A DNA stretch of 64,000 nucleotides, taken from Leptolyngbya sp. SIO1E4. GTDB lineage: Bacteria; Cyanobacteriota; Cyanobacteriia; Phormidesmidales; Phormidesmidaceae. This document shows, piece after piece, positions 27 to 11,630 of the stretch; position 1 is the stretch's first letter; every line of letters starts with the position of its first letter. Location: assembly GCA_010672825.2 (NCBI GenBank), contig JAAHFU020000007.1:1-64000 (forward strand), written 5' to 3'. The notes beneath the pieces are model-generated. The model had not been told where the DNA came from. It worked only from the letters and a program-made list of their open reading frames with translations, and ran no database searches. Made by a program: the position numbers and the translations under genes.

Positions 27-1352
27 CTAAGACTCTATCAGCGCTTCGGTTTCTCTTTGCGCCTGCTGCATGGCCGCTTCAACGGATTGCTGCCCGCGCA
101 GAATCTTACCCAAGGCAGTTTGTAGAATCTCAGAGGCGGCGTCATATTGTTTAAGGGATGGGCGAAAAACTGATGATTGCTCTAAATAGTCCAGCATCTG
201 CGGCATGATTGGGTGCTGGGCAACGATGTCGGGGTTTTGAAACAGCGATCGCCGACTGGGTAAAAAGCCCGAAACCGATACAAACTTCGCCTGGGCAGCC
301 TCGCTCGTAAAGTACTTGATTACCTCCCAGGCTTCGTCTGGATGGGCAGCATTTCTGGGGATGCCAAAGCCCCAACCCCCGCGACATCCAACCCCAGGTG
401 TCGGGGTGAATGAAAAGGGCGGCGCGATTGCCACGCGATCTTCCCAACCCTGAGCTTTCAACTCTGTCCAGAAATAGGGCCACCCCCGCAAAAAAACCGC
501 CTGCCCCTGTTGAAACGCTTCCAAGGAAGACTGTTCGGTGTAGTCAGTCACAATTGGTGGTGAAATGCCTTGTTGGAGCAGATCGCGCAGCAGCTCTGCC
601 GCCTGCATGGCAGCCGCTGTGTCCAACCCCACCTGTTGGTTAGCGGGGTCAATCCAGGTGGCGCCGAAGCTATGCATCACCTCGACAAAGGTGGTCACTA
701 ACCCCTCGTAAGAACGACCCTGCCACAGATAGCCAAAGTCGACAGCCGAGAATTGTTGCTTGAGCGCGGTTACCACCTGGGCCAGTTCTGCAAGGGTCGA
801 TGGCACTGAAAAGCCCGCCTGGCCTAGCAAATCTTGACGGTAGTAAAGCACCCCCAAATCAGCCCGCATCGGCAGTCGATAGAGGCCATCCCCGCGCCTG
901 CCTGCCGTGAGTTCAGTGGATAAAAAATCTGAAATATCGAGCCCGTCTCGCTCGATCAAAGGCATCAGATTGATGAGCTGGGCTGCAAATTTAGGGATCC
1001 ACACAATGTCCATGTAGACCAAATCATACTGAGCGACTTCCGCCTGGAAATCGGCAGTGTAGATCGCCTCTCGCTGATCGGTTGTGTAGGTAGCCTCAGG
1101 ATCCGTCACCAGGGTAATGCGGATGTCTGGGTGCTCGACCTCAAAGTCAGCAATCACGTTCTGCCAGGGGTGCACTTCATCCTGGGGGACGATAAATGAC
1201 AGCTCCACAGGAGTCTGCCCAGGCCAAGTCAGCCCCCAAAGCAGGAGACAGAGAATTTGCACCGCCAGGGTAATGCTCAGCAGCCTCAAGGGTGACAACC
1301 AACGATGTCGGCGCCCCAGCGATCGCCCCTGACTTTTGTAAAGACCACTCAT
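27..1352 (-). CDS. ABC transporter extracellular solute-binding protein (family 1, sugar type)
   Basis: A 441-residue periplasmic binding protein that probably delivers a sugar or oligosaccharide to an ABC importer. After a short basic N-terminus there is one hydrophobic segment (about residues 23-43 from this start) that can act as signal anchor. The rest has the family-1 binding-protein pattern: early ELSFIVP strand, a FEVEHPDIRI segment, a LPMRADLGVLYYRQDLL hinge region, and a C-terminal AWEVIKYFTSEAAQAKFV helix. The ATG at 1352 is preferred because AAGG lies just upstream; ATG 1367 and TTG 1376 are also in frame. It is divergent from the operon starting at 1495. No permease or ATPase gene lies within the window; partners could lie beyond the left edge. 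Substrate cannot be read from sequence. Confidence 0.85.
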   Translation of the reverse strand: MSGLYKSQGRSLGRRHRWLSPLRLLSITLAVQILCLLLWGLTWPGQTPVELSFIVPQDEVHPWQNVIADFEVEHPDIRITLVTDPEATYTTDQREAIYTADFQAEVAQYDLVYMDIVWIPKFAAQLINLMPLIERDGLDISDFLSTELTAGRRGDGLYRLPMRADLGVLYYRQDLLGQAGFSVPSTLAELAQVVTALKQQFSAVDFGYLWQGRSYEGLVTTFVEVMHSFGATWIDPANQQVGLDTAAAMQAAELLRDLLQQGISPPIVTDYTEQSSLEAFQQGQAVFLRGWPYFWTELKAQGWEDRVAIAPPFSFTPTPGVGCRGGWGFGIPRNAAHPDEAWEVIKYFTSEAAQAKFVSVSGFLPSRRSLFQNPDIVAQHPIMPQMLDYLEQSSVFRPSLKQYDAASEILQTALGKILRGQQSVEAAMQQAQRETEALIES

Positions 1353-1494: not shown

Positions 1495-2124
1495 ATGAAA
1501 ACTTTCTGGATATCTTGCCTGAAACAACCCCAAACCCCTCTGGTGTTACTCGGCACTGCCCTAGGATTGGGGCTGCTGATTACCCACTCAGGGAATCGCC
1601 CCCTCGCTTGGTTTGGGGGAGGAGCCGTGGCCACGGTCATGGTCAGTAGCTGGATATCAGGGAGCCATTCTTCACGCTCAACGGTAGATGAAATGAGCGA
1701 TTTGCTCAATCCAGCGATCTTTCGATGCCGCATTGAGGCCATTCAGGTCAAGATCGCCCGCACTCACCAGGCTGCTTGGAAGCCAGTACGATATTGGGCC
1801 TTACAGTCTCAAGCCTGTGCGGTGCACATCTGCGATCGCGACCCTTGGCTGCAGACAGAGTTATTAGAAGCCCTCCACACCGTCGTGGATCTAGCTCAGA
1901 AAGTGGCAGACGGCTTACAGGTGAAGGTGCAGATTCAGACCCCCCTCTATCAGTACAAAATCCAGAAGCAATTGAGGCAGCACTGCGATCGCCTGCAGAA
2001 AATCTATGCCCAACTGCAACAGTTTCAAGATCACCTTGCCCTTACCAGCCTTGAAACCACGCCTGCAGATATCACCCTGCCCCAACGGCTCCAGGCCTTG
2101 ATTCACACCAACCAGTCGCCCTGA
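1495..2124 (+). CDS. Uncharacterised helical membrane protein, first gene of VWA operon
   Basis: I do not recognise this 209-residue protein. Two short hydrophobic segments at about residues 14-30 and 38-53 suggest a membrane hairpin or anchor. The remainder is soluble and helical, with a long heptad-like stretch (about 120-185, rich in L, Q, K and containing QKQLRQHCDRLQKIYAQLQQF) likely to form a coiled coil. It is followed after 10 bp by the VWA lipoprotein gene and then by a third gene with overlapping stop/start, so the three are very probably one transcript and may form one envelope complex. Helical membrane proteins next to VWA proteins occur in stress-response neighbourhoods, but no specific family can be assigned. 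Confidence 0.7.
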   Translation: MKTFWISCLKQPQTPLVLLGTALGLGLLITHSGNRPLAWFGGGAVATVMVSSWISGSHSSRSTVDEMSDLLNPAIFRCRIEAIQVKIARTHQAAWKPVRYWALQSQACAVHICDRDPWLQTELLEALHTVVDLAQKVADGLQVKVQIQTPLYQYKIQKQLRQHCDRLQKIYAQLQQFQDHLALTSLETTPADITLPQRLQALIHTNQSP

Positions 2125-2134
2125 CCAACGCCCC

Positions 2135-3931
2135 GTGTTCTTTCGCAGTGAAATGATGATGCACCCTATCATGCGTAAATTTTTACCGAACCGAACCTCT
2201 CGTCAATTGCTCGGGTTTAGCGTGGGTCTGTTGGCCAGCCTGGGACTCGCGTTACTCAGTGGCTGCCTGGGTGGAGCCACTGTCGATTCTGTAGAGAGCG
2301 CCCAATCTGTCCTCAACAACCGAATATTGCCTCAAATTGAGATCGGCACTGAAACAGTACCCGATGCCGTGGCGGCCCGCTACGCCGTTGATCAAATCCA
2401 AGAACCCCTGCCTGATATTGAAACCTTTCCACTTTATGGAGCCACCCCTCAACCCGGTAGCAATGAGGTGTATATCGAACTCTATAGCTCCTCTGAAAAA
2501 GCCAATATTGATCGAGAAAACGAACGGTGGTTGGTGGAAGTCGCCACCGCCTTTAACCAACGGCAGGAAACCCTCAACTCTGGAAAAGTCATTCAGGTTG
2601 GGGTGCGAAAAATTGCCTCAGGGACAGCGGCTCGATTGTTGGGGGCAGGGGCGGCCCAACCCGCAGGCTATAGCCCTTCTAATGACCTCTGGATTTCAAT
2701 GATTAAAAGCCAGGGCGTGGATGTAAGGTCGGTGGCGCCTCAGCTCGTGCCCAACACGGCTGGCTGGGTCGTCCCCGCTGAGGTTTATCAGCAGCTACAG
2801 TCTGATGGCCCAGTCACCTTCGATGTCTTACTCAATGCCATTGCCTTAGATCAAGTAACCGTTGCTTACCCTAACCCCTATAAGAGTTCGACTGCGCTCA
2901 ATTTGCTCTATACCCTATATTGGCGCGCTGCCGGTCATCATCAGGATGGCGGGGCGCTGACCAAGGCCGAACTCCAGACACCCCAGGTCAAATCGGTATT
3001 TGATCAGTTTCAATCCCAGGTGTTGATTACCACCCCCACCACCTTAGAGCTCCAAGAACTTTTCCTGCGTGACCAGAGTAAACTCCAGGCCTTTCCGCTG
3101 GAATATCAAAATTATCTGGCGCTAAAACAGGTATCCGGCTTTGAAGAGACCGAGTTTATTCCCTTTGGTATTCCCCATAACAATCCGTTAGTTGGGTTCG
3201 GCTGGAATTCTCCCGAAACGGCTGCTGCCCTCGATCGCTTCGCGACCTTTGCCCGTTCCCCTGAAATGATACAGCTGGCCCGCAATCAAGGTTTCATTGA
3301 AACCGACTACTTCCAATCTGCTCATCCGCCCATTCCTGATGGCAGCACATTACTGGCCGCCCAATCTAGCTGGAAACTTAATAAAGACAGCGGCCAAACC
3401 GTCTATCTCGAGATGGTGATTGACACCAGCGGTTCGATGCAGGGTGAACCCCTGGCGGCTGTACAAGCAGGGTTACGCATTGCCAGTCAGCAGATTAACC
3501 GCAGTAATCAGCTGGGGCTTGTGACCTTTGCCGATCGCCCCATTCGCCAGTTACCCCTCGCATCCTTTGATGAACGGCACCATAAAAAACTGCTGGCGGC
3601 GATTGACCAACTGCAGGCTGACGGTAAGACGGCAATGTATGACGGCATCATGGTGGGGTTGGCCGATTTGCTCGAAAAACGGGCCAGTGACCCTAACGGG
3701 CGGTTTTACCTGATGCTGCTCACGGATGGTGAGGTTAATTGGGGGCATCGGTTTGCCGACATCCAGGACATCATGACCTACAGCCAGGTGCGCTTTTATC
3801 CGATCGCCTACGGCAATGTAAACGAGTCAGAACTTCAGGCGATCGCAAACCTGCGAGAATCGACGGTCAAGCAAGGCAATCCCGAGAACGTGAAAACCCT
3901 GTTCAAGGATTTGTTCCAGGTGAATTTATGA
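2135..3931 (+). CDS. Lipoprotein with binding-protein-like domain fused to von Willebrand factor A domain
   Basis: A 598-residue envelope protein. A signal peptide with lipobox LLSGC (Cys44 from the GTG start) predicts a lipoprotein. Residues about 105-400 resemble a type-2 periplasmic binding protein: EVYIELYSSSEKANI strand, VATAFNQRQ helix, PNPYKSSTALNLLYTLY hinge, FPLEYQNYLALKQ. From about 420 there is a VWA domain with an intact MIDAS start (D430-T-S432-G-S434) and later TAMYDGI and LLTDGE elements, so metal-dependent ligand binding is expected. Start is GTG 2135 or ATG 2153. It sits between a helical membrane protein and a small membrane protein, which it overlaps by 4 bp. The fusion suggests a ligand-sensing adhesion or chaperone role in the periplasm; this is inference. 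Confidence 0.8.
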   Translation: MFFRSEMMMHPIMRKFLPNRTSRQLLGFSVGLLASLGLALLSGCLGGATVDSVESAQSVLNNRILPQIEIGTETVPDAVAARYAVDQIQEPLPDIETFPLYGATPQPGSNEVYIELYSSSEKANIDRENERWLVEVATAFNQRQETLNSGKVIQVGVRKIASGTAARLLGAGAAQPAGYSPSNDLWISMIKSQGVDVRSVAPQLVPNTAGWVVPAEVYQQLQSDGPVTFDVLLNAIALDQVTVAYPNPYKSSTALNLLYTLYWRAAGHHQDGGALTKAELQTPQVKSVFDQFQSQVLITTPTTLELQELFLRDQSKLQAFPLEYQNYLALKQVSGFEETEFIPFGIPHNNPLVGFGWNSPETAAALDRFATFARSPEMIQLARNQGFIETDYFQSAHPPIPDGSTLLAAQSSWKLNKDSGQTVYLEMVIDTSGSMQGEPLAAVQAGLRIASQQINRSNQLGLVTFADRPIRQLPLASFDERHHKKLLAAIDQLQADGKTAMYDGIMVGLADLLEKRASDPNGRFYLMLLTDGEVNWGHRFADIQDIMTYSQVRFYPIAYGNVNESELQAIANLRESTVKQGNPENVKTLFKDLFQVNL

Positions 3932-4314
3932 TGTACACACAGAATCCTACACGGCGACTGATAAGAACCCTGGGGTTAGGGTGGTTGGCTTTTGCAGGGG
4001 TTGGCTTATTGCTGCACTTTGTCATTCGCATCCCCGCCATCACAGTCATCATCGATCGCAGCTATTGCCCCCCAGATCAGTGGCAACAGCAGGTCGTTCA
4101 ACCCTATCGTGACCTTTATCAGCAGGCACACTCTAAGCAGCTGCAAATTACCCAGGTGGTAGTGATGACAGATATTGATCAAACCCCATTACCCACCGTC
4201 CCTGCGCCGGAAGCATTAGGCAACCCCTTTGGCCAAGCCCCTGATTTTGGAACTGTCGCGGCAGTGGCACAGCAATTTCCAGACGCGGTCTTCCTCCGGT
4301 GTAAAGTTCCCTAA
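3928..4314 (+). CDS. Small membrane-anchored protein, possibly a truncated VWA-like partner
   Basis: A 128-residue protein beginning at ATG 3928, whose ATGA overlaps the TGA stop of the VWA lipoprotein, implying translational coupling. Residues about 10-36 form one membrane segment, followed by an extracytoplasmic part. That part contains AITVIIDRSYCPP and later VVVMTDID, an alternation that loosely recalls strands 1 and 4 of a VWA fold without a DxSxS MIDAS motif. The reading frame stops at 4314, only about 45 bp before the start of a dispersed repeat (4360-4440), so the C-terminus could have been lost when that repeat arrived. Function unknown. Confidence 0.65.
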   Translation: MMYTQNPTRRLIRTLGLGWLAFAGVGLLLHFVIRIPAITVIIDRSYCPPDQWQQQVVQPYRDLYQQAHSKQLQITQVVVMTDIDQTPLPTVPAPEALGNPFGQAPDFGTVAAVAQQFPDAVFLRCKVP

Positions 4315-7548: not shown

Positions 7549-8388
7549 TCAAAGCTTATTCTTGTTCTTGAGCTTGACGGACTCATACAGTTTTTCCATC
7601 GCCTCAATAAAAGAGTTGTCTCGGTGCCAAAAGGCTGGGAAGTCTCCTTGCTTCTTCACCAGAATCGCGGGTACAGCCGAGGGAGAAGCCTCCTCTATTG
7701 TTTGAGGCAACCGCTTCTCGCCGTGCCAAAAATCCTTCAGGGTCAGATCCGGAACGGGGGTCGTTTGCGGTTGGGTGTAGTAGTGATCGACGAGAGTTGG
7801 GGGGCGTTGCTGAGCTGAGAGTTCTGCAGAAAGGGCTTGCCCCAGGGGGCTCTTCTCTAATTCTGCCTTGAGCGCTTCCCGGGGTAGGCCACGGAGTTCG
7901 AACAGTAAAAACGGATCGCGATCGAGTTCAGCAGCGATGAGATAATACACCCCAGCAATATGCTTGCAAGGGTTGCTGTAGTCTGGGCACGAACACCGAG
8001 TCTGAAAATCCTTTTTGCTTGCGGGTAGCAAGTTTAGCCCTAAGGTTTTGAAGCTGTCTTCAATGTTGTCAGGAATTTCATTGAGCAGGAGTCGGGAGAT
8101 CAGACTGGCCTTGGACGCAATGAGGGCAATGACCGCTGCCCATTTTGCTTTGCTGATGGGCTCAAAATCGATCACGGTGTTATAAAGCGGCTCTTCATAG
8201 ACGCCAAAGTAAGGGTTGACCGAGCCCCTAACCTGGGCCGAGACCAGCCCTCCGTCAATGTCAAAGCGTTTAACTTTGTTGCCTCGAGCATAGGATCGCC
8301 CCCGACTTAAACGGCCTGCATCAGTCAACCGTTCAATGGCGTCAATGAACTTTTGCCCCCACCAACTGCGACTAAATTTCTGAGCCAT
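7549..8388 (-). CDS. SWIM zinc finger family protein
   Basis: A 279-residue protein with a SWIM zinc finger: C132-x-C134-x6-C141-x-H143 within TRCSCPDYSNPCKHIAG. The N-terminal part (AQKFSRSWWGQKFIDAIE, GRSYARGNKVK) is the standard opening of bacterial SWIM proteins that accompany SNF2 helicases. It starts 5 bp downstream of the helicase stop, so the two are cotranscribed and probably act together on nucleic acid or protein-nucleic acid complexes. SWIM fingers bind DNA or proteins; the specific target is unknown. Confidence 0.9.
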   Translation of the reverse strand: MAQKFSRSWWGQKFIDAIERLTDAGRLSRGRSYARGNKVKRFDIDGGLVSAQVRGSVNPYFGVYEEPLYNTVIDFEPISKAKWAAVIALIASKASLISRLLLNEIPDNIEDSFKTLGLNLLPASKKDFQTRCSCPDYSNPCKHIAGVYYLIAAELDRDPFLLFELRGLPREALKAELEKSPLGQALSAELSAQQRPPTLVDHYYTQPQTTPVPDLTLKDFWHGEKRLPQTIEEASPSAVPAILVKKQGDFPAFWHRDNSFIEAMEKLYESVKLKNKNKL

Positions 8389-8393
8389 CGTGA

Positions 8394-11300
8394 TTACTCC
8401 AAAATGGCGCTCTTGTTGAGCTCAATCAATTGCTTAAAGGCGTCATTGTCGAGTTCTGTGAGCCAGGACTCATCAGCGCCAACGATCGCACCAGCCAGCT
8501 TTTTCTTATCTTCAATCATCTGATCAATACGCTCTTCCAGCGTCCCCATGGCGACGAACTTGTGGACAAAGACATTTTTTTGTTGGCCAATGCGGAAGGC
8601 GCGATCGGTGGCCTGGTCTTCAACGGCAGGGTTCCACCAGCGATCAAAATGAAATACGTGGTTGGCTTTGGTCAACGTAATGCCGACCCCTGCCGCTTTC
8701 AGAGACAGCACAAAAATAGAGGGGTCGGTTTCCGGATCCTGGAACTCGCTAATCATCTGTTCCCGTTTCTTGCGATGGGTGCCGCCGTGAATGTAGTAGG
8801 TGTTGTAGTGGCGGGTGTAGCGCAGGTGAGAGTCTAAAGCATCACCAATCTCACGAAACTGGCTGAACACTAGAGCGCTCTCCCCTTCTTCGACAACTTC
8901 ATCCAGCATTTCGAGGAGGCGGCTAAGTTTGTGGGAGCGCTCAGCTGTGAACTCACTCTCGTCTTGCAGGAACTGGCGGGGGTGGTTGCAGATTTGCTTC
9001 AGTTTAGTCAACGTCGCCAGAATTAACCCTTTGCGCTGAATGCCCTCAGCCTGCTCTATCTGCTCGGTAACGTCTTTGAGTACCGCCTCGTAGAGTGAAG
9101 CTTGCTCTTTGGTGAGATTGCAGAAGAGCTTTTGTTCCACTTTATCGGGCAGATCTTTGATGATGGACTGATCCGTCTTCACCCGTCTCAGAATAAAAGG
9201 TTCTACCAGCTTTTTGAGGGTGGCGGAGCGGGTCGGGCTATTGTTTTTCTGGATGGGCACCTCGAACTGCTTGCGAAACTGGCTCTGGGTGCCCAAGTAG
9301 CCCGGATTCAAAAAGTTGAAAATCGACCACAGGTCGAGCAATCGGTTTTCGACGGGGGTGCCGGTCAGGGCCAGTCGATGGTGAGCGTTGAGCTTCAGAA
9401 TCGCTTTGGTCTGAGCCGTTTTAGGGTTTTTAATGTTCTGGGCTTCATCTAGTACAAGGCGGTGCCAGGTGACCTCGGTAAGCAACTTGGCATCTTTACG
9501 GGCCAGGGTGAAAGAGGTAATCACCACGTCGTGGGTGCGGCAGAGGGCTTTAAAGTTTTTGGAGTCTTTTGGGCGATCGCCCCCATGGTGCACAGCTACC
9601 GTTAAATGCGGCGCAAACTTATGCAGTTCGTGGTACCAGTTACCCACGACAGAGGTCGGCGCAATCAGCAGGGTGGGAGGAATTTGTTTAGCCCCTGCCT
9701 CGGTTGCGATCTCCCGCTCTTGCACCAGTCGAGCAATGACTTGAACCGTCTTCCCCAGCCCCATGTCGTCAGCCAGGCAGCCGTTGAGACCTAGATTTTC
9801 CAGATAGTGCAGCCAGGAGAGTCCACGTTTTTGATAGTCTCGCAGGGTGCCCTGCAGGTCATTGGGGTCAGGGGTGATATCCAGGCGACTCTTGTCGTTG
9901 AGCTGGCCCAGCATGGTTGCCAGGGTTTCATCACGATCAAAGTCCACCGTGAGGTCGTCCGCTTCCCCCGTGGTTAGTCGCATAAAATCTAGCAGGCTCA
10001 TTTCTGGATTTTCTGTCTGCTGCTGTTTCCAGAAGTCCAGCATTTGCTGCATTTTCTCGCGATCTAGCTCCATCCACTGACCGCGAAACTGCACCAGCAG
10101 CGATTTAGCCTGCACCAGCTGCTGCCATTCCGGTTCACTCACAGGCTGATCGCCAATGGACAGCGTGTACTGGTATTGCACCAACGTTTCGAAGGAAAAA
10201 TAGCCCTTGGCCTTGTCGTTGCCGCCGAGGGATTTGCCCTTGGCTTTGAGTCGCACCCTAGCCCGCTGTCGCCCTTTCGGTGTCCACCAGGCGGGCACGA
10301 TCACCTTATAGCCAGCATCCTCCAACACCCAGGCAGATTCTTTGAGGAAAGTAAACGCCGTATCTAAATCGACAAAGATGCCGACCGGCTCGTCCGTTTC
10401 TAAGCCTTGCCAAAACTTGGGATAAATGCGGGCGGCATAGCCCAGGTTCATCAACAGGTGCTGCTCAAAGTTTTGACCAAACTGTTTCCGCAGTTCCTGT
10501 TGTTGTGAACCGCGCAGTCGCCAAAAGTCGAGCAGCGAAACTCTCAGGGAGGGATCGTGTTTCGGGGCCACTTGAAACTGGATCTGCCAGGCGTCTTCAG
10601 GTTTGAGGGGTTCCTCTAATTTGAAACAGATGTGGAAGGGAGCGGCGGTTTCAGAGCGGCTAATGCGATCGCGCCACCCTTGCCACTGCTGATATTTTTC
10701 CAGAACCGCATGGGTACCCTGGGTCGGAGATTTAAGATTTTGGCTCAGGCAGTCTTGAACCAGAGAGTTTTCAACTTTTTTGAGGAAGGTTTGGGGCAGC
10801 AATGTTGTCCGCACCAGATCAGTTACCCAGCTTTCTGAAAAATGTCGAAGCAAGGTTTTACGATCATACAGAGTGGGTGTTTCGGGTGGATCTGTAAACC
10901 CAGCTACGCAGAGAGCGGGCATATAGTCTACGTGAGCGGTGAGGTCAGCTGCGTAGCGATCGCCCACAATGTCCCAGCCTGGATAAAGCTCAAAGGTATC
11001 CTCAGGTGTTGGAGTACCTGTTTTTTTCTTTTTAGAGTTAGAGGCGGCAGATTTAGAGGCGGCTTTTGACTGGCGGGGGTTACCCGAACGCCCAGACCTG
11101 ACTGCTGCCAAGCGCCGATACTTCAGGGCTGGAATGTACTGATCTCTGAGGATCACCTGCTTCAACGTTTGGGTGTAGTGATACCAAAACAGCAGGTCAG
11201 GCCCGAGTTGAATCTCGGCCAGATTATAGCGGGTAATAAAGTGCAGCTCATTGAGCACGCTGACGATGCTCGTATTGTCTGGAATTGAGTAGCAGTCTAC

Positions 11301-11630
11301 TTGCCAAAACTGCCAGGTAAACGTTTCGGGGCTTTCAGTTTCTAAGTAACGGGAAAGTTCCAGGGAGGGTAACGGCTGGTCATCGGCTGTCGGCAGCAGA
11401 AAGTATTGTGGGGTAATCAAGTCCTCTAGTTTTCGGAAACCCAGCGATTTTAGACCCAGTTCATCCGCCAGAACCGGAACCAAATCGGGCTCAAACAGAT
11501 GTCGGGGGTGATAGTCGTTAGAACGACGACGGCGACTTTTCTGATCCGTTTCAACCCAGAGGTAAAACGTACCAGTTTGAATAAACGCGTCCGTTGCTTG
11601 GGGGATCCAGGTTCCGTGGAGAATCTTCAT
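8394..11630 (-). CDS. SNF2-family ATP-dependent helicase/translocase with DUF3670 N-terminus
   Basis: A 1078-residue SF2 translocase. The first 550 residues are the SNF2-associated bacterial region (DUF3670-like), with a short Lys/Ser-rich low-complexity linker near 190-210. The ATPase core has motif I DDMGLGKT (about 618-625), motif II DEAQ (about 727-730), motif III LTGTPVENRLLDLWS, then the helicase-C half with LVFSQF, SLKAAGVGITLT and DRAFRIGQ. All key residues are present. It would use ATP to remodel duplex-protein complexes; bacterial relatives are tied to transcription recycling or repair. The SWIM gene follows 5 bp downstream. Full length, no frameshift. Confidence 0.93.
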   Translation of the reverse strand: MKILHGTWIPQATDAFIQTGTFYLWVETDQKSRRRRSNDYHPRHLFEPDLVPVLADELGLKSLGFRKLEDLITPQYFLLPTADDQPLPSLELSRYLETESPETFTWQFWQVDCYSIPDNTSIVSVLNELHFITRYNLAEIQLGPDLLFWYHYTQTLKQVILRDQYIPALKYRRLAAVRSGRSGNPRQSKAASKSAASNSKKKKTGTPTPEDTFELYPGWDIVGDRYAADLTAHVDYMPALCVAGFTDPPETPTLYDRKTLLRHFSESWVTDLVRTTLLPQTFLKKVENSLVQDCLSQNLKSPTQGTHAVLEKYQQWQGWRDRISRSETAAPFHICFKLEEPLKPEDAWQIQFQVAPKHDPSLRVSLLDFWRLRGSQQQELRKQFGQNFEQHLLMNLGYAARIYPKFWQGLETDEPVGIFVDLDTAFTFLKESAWVLEDAGYKVIVPAWWTPKGRQRARVRLKAKGKSLGGNDKAKGYFSFETLVQYQYTLSIGDQPVSEPEWQQLVQAKSLLVQFRGQWMELDREKMQQMLDFWKQQQTENPEMSLLDFMRLTTGEADDLTVDFDRDETLATMLGQLNDKSRLDITPDPNDLQGTLRDYQKRGLSWLHYLENLGLNGCLADDMGLGKTVQVIARLVQEREIATEAGAKQIPPTLLIAPTSVVGNWYHELHKFAPHLTVAVHHGGDRPKDSKNFKALCRTHDVVITSFTLARKDAKLLTEVTWHRLVLDEAQNIKNPKTAQTKAILKLNAHHRLALTGTPVENRLLDLWSIFNFLNPGYLGTQSQFRKQFEVPIQKNNSPTRSATLKKLVEPFILRRVKTDQSIIKDLPDKVEQKLFCNLTKEQASLYEAVLKDVTEQIEQAEGIQRKGLILATLTKLKQICNHPRQFLQDESEFTAERSHKLSRLLEMLDEVVEEGESALVFSQFREIGDALDSHLRYTRHYNTYYIHGGTHRKKREQMISEFQDPETDPSIFVLSLKAAGVGITLTKANHVFHFDRWWNPAVEDQATDRAFRIGQQKNVFVHKFVAMGTLEERIDQMIEDKKKLAGAIVGADESWLTELDNDAFKQLIELNKSAILE

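Follow-up and report, generated by a model that had tools for sequence, protein, structure and literature searches.

The window analysed here is the first 64 kb of a contig (C7) in an 8.2 Mb cyanobacterial genome, and the gene trio under study lies near the contig start. Sequence inspection agreed with the preliminary description in placing three open reading frames at 1495-4314, which are called g1, g2 and g3 below.

1495-2124, + strand: g1, 209 aa; a two-helix N-terminal membrane hairpin and a helical domain of ~150 residues, predicted to be cytoplasmic
2135-3931, + strand: g2, 598 aa when read from GTG; a lipoprotein with a class-II periplasmic-binding domain (~108-419) and a VWA domain (~421-598)
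3928-4314, + strand: g3, 128 aa; one N-terminal helix and a periplasmic domain of ~95 residues, likely a truncated VWA-like domain
27-1376, divergent to the trio: a sugar-type binding protein

There is little or no spacing within the trio, and the start of g3 overlaps the stop of g2 as ATGA. The 10 bp gap given earlier for g1 and g2 holds for the GTG start at 2135. Because the ATG at 2171, rather than this GTG, is where both the orthologue alignment and the whole-genome profile match start, the ATG is probably the true start of g2, in which case the protein would have 586 aa and the gap would be ~46 bp. No obvious Shine-Dalgarno sequence was found before either candidate start, and the residue numbering of g2 used here follows the GTG. 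Downstream of the trio, at 7549-11630 of the window, there is a gene pair encoding a small zinc-finger-like protein and an SNF2-type helicase; a helicase resembling the latter also lies 3ʹ of the trio in loci L072 and L094.

Domain architecture of the three proteins

The central protein, g2, gave two Pfam matches, SBP_bac_11 at 132-387 (above the gathering score) and VWA at 428-575 (E 6e-15), and its AlphaFold model had a mean pLDDT of 90.7 and a pTM of 0.85. In structure comparisons, residues 108-420 were aligned with the sulfate-binding protein 5um2 (Z 23.6, rmsd 4.0, 285 residues), the top neighbours of this clamshell also including thiamin, phosphosugar and ferric binders. Residues 421-598 were aligned with the VWA domain 4fx5 (Z 23.2, rmsd 1.5, 173 residues), and the neighbours of this part included pilus-tip and integrin domains. 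When the solved structures were searched by sequence with g2, the matches all contained VWA. The N-terminal part of g2 thus has the two lobes of a class II periplasmic-binding fold, as had been proposed from the sequence. R158, S162-G163, W186, N247-P248 and F344-G345 were among the clamshell residues invariant across g2 relatives, which is consistent with a conserved ligand; the modelled fold by itself would not specify which one.

The C-terminal part combines a VWA fold with a DxSxS motif and the distal Thr and Asp metal ligands. The intact MIDAS noted earlier (D430-S432-S434) was borne out, as D430, S432, S434, T499 and D531 were all identical in 54 of 54 aligned g2 relatives, Clostridia and Proteobacteria included. 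A lipobox, LLSGC, is present in the window protein, and one was found in 38 of the 54 aligned rows. Most of the rows lacking it, including those from Clostridia and Proteobacteria, either started with an uncleaved-looking transmembrane segment or were truncated. Lipobox or transmembrane segment, either would anchor g2 on the outside of the cytoplasmic membrane.

Hydropathy confirmed that g1 is a two-segment helical membrane protein, with the hairpin at the N terminus followed by about 150 helical residues. Pfam scans of g1 and g3 gave no convincing domain, and across the families no consistent match was seen in 26 g1 members and no match at all in any g3 member. Searches of solved structures by sequence, with g1 and with the g3 profile, returned nothing convincing. 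In two loci, g1 has an extra membrane domain at its N terminus (L082 8512-9987 and L090 8561-9979).

For g3, the AlphaFold model (mean pLDDT 89.6, pTM 0.73) consisted of a long N-terminal helix, a strand at 37-43, a helix at 49-68, a strand at 73-80, a short strand, a helix at 107-116 and a strand at 121-123; together with hydropathy, it confirmed the single membrane segment described before. The best 50 solved structures aligned to the model were all VWA, VWA-like or integrin I domains, with Z scores of 5.8-6.9, which sit under the caution level of 8 given for the tool, where a match may reflect a common arrangement. Residues 34-128 of g3 matched the first ~110 residues of these domains, and the remainder of the fold is absent. 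Profile comparison of g3 with the VWA domain of g2 detected no sequence relationship, and the assignment therefore rests on the model. We consider g3 likely, rather than proven, to be a truncated VWA domain because of the low Z scores, and the call is strengthened by the uniformity of the best 50 and by the fitting position of a motif. Since g3 models in this way, its earlier listing as one of two unknown membrane proteins was too modest.

The motif in question is DRSYC (DxSxC), which lies at the position of the MIDAS DxSxS. In a register taken from the ends of the aligned ranges, not residue by residue, g3 34..127 pairs with integrin alphaM 131..244, so that D43, S45 and C47 fall on D140, S142 and S144, and C125 falls on D242; these four are MIDAS residues of integrin alphaM. 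In this register, cysteine takes the place of both the third MIDAS Ser and the distal Asp, and g3 does not have an intact MIDAS. All 52 cyanobacterial sequences share C47 and C125, together with Y60, V77 and G102, and have D, E or N at position 43. In the simplest reading, the two cysteines at the former metal-ligand positions probably form a putative periplasmic disulfide that replaces the metal. VWA is a very widespread domain, and a truncated form with cysteines for metal ligands would be an unusual variant of it.

Conservation of the trio and its relatives

Of 71 cyanobacterial loci, 65 have g1 upstream of g2 and on its strand, and in no more than three of the rest would g1 have fitted. 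Downstream of g2, g3 is present in 58 loci, and nine of the loci without it have enough space. In profile searches of 386 genomes drawn evenly across the phylum, strong matches to g1, g2 and g3 were found in exactly the same 11 genomes, a coincidence with a chance of 1/C(386,11) = 1.6e-21 if shared ancestry is ignored. There were two weak extra matches, a fragmentary g3 containing a stop (G009) and a 33-residue match to g1 (G193). Of nine genomes tested, seven have a locus that lacks g3 beside g2, yet all nine encode g3, either close by or at another site. In Leptolyngbya PCC 6406 (L135) the detached g3 is beside tpiA, and the window genome has the trio a second time (contig C1, L004 7706-11519), there with tpiA inserted between g2 and g3. 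Given the conserved order across cyanobacteria and the shared set of 11 genomes, the conservation of the trio is beyond chance. Since the genes adjoin in relatives and the N-terminal part of g2 folds as a binding protein, neither of the two findings named as speaking against the original proposal arose. The suggested functional link with the sugar-type binding gene at 27-1376 fared less well: a general link is unlikely because the gene was found divergently beside the trio nowhere but in the window and in L036, L037 and L038, three closely related Leptolyngbya.

The module was also found on plasmids of Stanieria and Pseudanabaena. Two Stanieria plasmids carry it, pSTA7437.01 (L033) and pSTA7437.02 (L032), one of them predicted to be conjugative, and SPFH-domain, DnaJ-domain and caspase-family genes lie near it there. 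A full trio in a contig labelled Candidatus Acetothermia (L050, PWTL01000023.1), with a g2 ~66% identical to the window copy, is probably cyanobacterial contamination of the MAG. No relatives of the trio were found in viral contigs, PADLOC models matched neither the trio nor the linked CHAT, DUF1822 and sigma-like proteins, and our literature search found no paper describing the trio.

Outside the cyanobacteria, a first set of clostridial g2 relatives showed 31-35% identity. In 12 of 12 distinct loci, a two-helix helical protein directly precedes the clostridial g2 relative, and this core arrangement, an SBP-VWA protein encoded after a two-helix protein, therefore extends beyond cyanobacteria, with two-helix proteins alike in layout. 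As a candidate homologue of g1, the clostridial upstream protein was rejected: hhalign found no relationship, and layout alone is common to both. TelA follows the g2 relative in five of the 12 loci (L107, L108, L110, L111 and L112), and one further locus (L154) is too short downstream. In an even sample of clostridial genomes, TelA was not found just downstream of g2, except in the query genome itself, which leaves the two-helix protein as the constant partner in Clostridia. A search of the window genome for the TelA gene of XpaC/TelA loci found none. Two proteobacterial g2 relatives (L106 and L109) are each followed by a small one-helix protein with a DxSF motif reminiscent of g3; these small proteins gave a short motif match to cyanobacterial g3, with a profile P of 0.0013 in a one-target comparison, which is no more than suggestive.

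Linkage to caspase-type proteases

In Nostocales and other filamentous cyanobacteria, genes for a sigma-like protein, a DUF1822 protein and a caspase-like CHAT protein form a colinear, same-strand block upstream of the trio (L068, L071-L074, L078, L079, L081 and L082), the sigma-like match being weak and below the cut-off. In Pseudanabaena, CHAT is fused to g1 (L031, L070, L076, L077, L080 and L089), the g1 domain making up the C-terminal part of a CHAT protein of 604-619 residues (L031 3920-5779, L070 and L024), in which a further region precedes CHAT. As the L031 query includes the g1 domain, CHAT was counted only where it was distinct from g1 or a true fusion. The His/Cys motifs AGHSS and NSCDG of CHAT are intact. 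Because a cytosol-type CHAT is naturally fused to the N terminus of g1, this terminus, and after two crossings the C terminus, should be cytoplasmic. In Pseudanabaena, genes for extra membrane proteins separate the CHAT-g1 fusion from g2 (L031 5794-6708 and 6923-7798).

The CHAT proteins scanned in the upstream block also carry a transmembrane helix and Peripla_BP_6. All three are in one protein in L068 (4950-7763), L072 (1711-6576), L073 (4255-6936) and L082 (3679-6423), with two tandem copies in L072, and such a protein is possibly a caspase-type receptor. Most Leptolyngbya-type loci have no caspase block beside the trio, and neither do the two copies in the window genome, although the window copy sits where its contig begins. 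The window genome has six DUF1822 genes at other places.

Proposed function and comparison with known systems

The anatomy of the trio and its linkage are well supported; the mechanism, which comprises every step past that anatomy, we infer. The reading that we favour, at about even confidence, is that the trio is one envelope-spanning ligand sensor that signals to a cytoplasmic caspase/sigma or stress pathway. The g2 clamshell would bind a putative ligand, a solute outside the cytoplasmic membrane, and binding would shift the state of the VWA domain and its MIDAS, altering the affinity for an acidic peptide or a partner. The partner would probably be within the complex, where the co-inherited, metal-less g3 is the obvious candidate. 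The change would then cross the membrane to g1, whose cytoplasmic helices would pass the signal to a cytoplasmic output. For filamentous lineages, this output would be a CHAT caspase of the EACC2 type, along with a sigma-like factor and a DUF1822 protein; the window genome has no such output partner next to the trio. We also entertain, as a rather unlikely elaboration, that g3 is a minimal VWA variant with a disulfide for the MIDAS metal and a redox-dependent partner of the metal-bound g2 VWA, the two domains forming a periplasmic switch, gated by ligand and redox state, that would control the cytoplasmic caspase via g1. The ligand-sensing envelope complex of the preliminary description was a fair inference, to which the ties with CHAT proteases, by gene linkage and by fusion, now add weight, and the metal-dependent adhesion attached to it has no specific evidence behind it.

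Three other roles were weighed. One, a possible but rather unlikely role, is a module of resistance to toxic oxyanions or to compounds that act on the envelope: g2 would bind such an oxyanion or an antimicrobial, and the complex would shield the membrane with no caspase output, as proposed for TelA-linked Firmicutes genes. The clostridial loci with g2 between a two-helix helical protein and TelA (L107, L108, L110, L111 and L112) fit it, as do the sulfate, thiamin, phosphosugar and ferric binders near the clamshell; however, the fold does not fix the ligand, TelA is missing from the window genome, and in the even clostridial sample it was not downstream beyond the query genome. A role in adhesion or envelope assembly, with the g2 MIDAS binding an external or peptidoglycan-associated protein and with g3 and g1 as anchors, has still less to recommend it. 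Although the integrin-like MIDAS is invariant in g2 relatives and its VWA resembles pilus-tip and integrin domains, no sortase, pilus or surface-repeat genes were prominent among the recurrent neighbours, and the fusion of g1 to a cytosolic protease indicates signalling.

We regard as very improbable that g2 is a stray ABC importer receptor delivering its solute to a permease encoded elsewhere. The class-II fold is near ABC receptors, but g2 is fused to VWA, and its strict co-occurrence is with g1 and g3, neither of which contains a transporter domain; the absence of a permease and an ATPase from the trio disfavours this role. Since several lineages link the apparent sensing complex to a caspase-like protease, or fuse the two, the trio may report the surroundings to the cell by a so far unnamed route. 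To our knowledge, the triggers of prokaryotic caspase-type conflict systems are largely open, and prediction of the systems has relied mainly on gene context. With its strict co-inheritance, its solute-binding domain and, in one lineage, a natural fusion to CHAT, an envelope module of this kind would give such a protease an extracytoplasmic input that can be tested.

Several described arrangements resemble the trio in part. The SBP_bac_11-VWA architecture shown by g2 was tabulated as one co-occurrence, with no function or operon partner given (PMC13293324). A peptide-binding VWA switch, as proposed here for g2, is also used by the MoxR-VWA ternary conflict systems (PMC7159879), but there the VWA protein has a cytoplasmic MoxR ATPase as its partner, whereas the VWA of the trio is extracytoplasmic; no MoxR gene was found among the annotated recurrent neighbours. 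The clostridial two-helix / SBP-VWA / TelA loci likewise place the g2 homologue right after a two-helix helical membrane protein, but this upstream protein has no detectable sequence homology to g1, and the third gene is TelA or none rather than g3.

The closest comparison is with the EACC2-caspase systems. Passages of the paper describing them report variable C-terminal domains, with transmembrane helices and ligand-binding domains, in the caspase proteins, and an ECF sigma factor and DUF1822 alongside; the systems were proposed there to be sensor-triggered, with autoproteolysis (eLife 2021, PMC8195603). These passages make no mention of an SBP-VWA lipoprotein, g1 or g3, and, unlike those systems, most Leptolyngbya-type trio loci stand without a caspase block. 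In filamentous lineages, in contrast, either a CHAT gene accompanied by DUF1822 and sigma-like genes lies immediately upstream of the trio or CHAT and g1 form one protein. By its organisation and by the published description, from which we take the EACC2 label, the trio seems to be one more component of the EACC2-caspase network.
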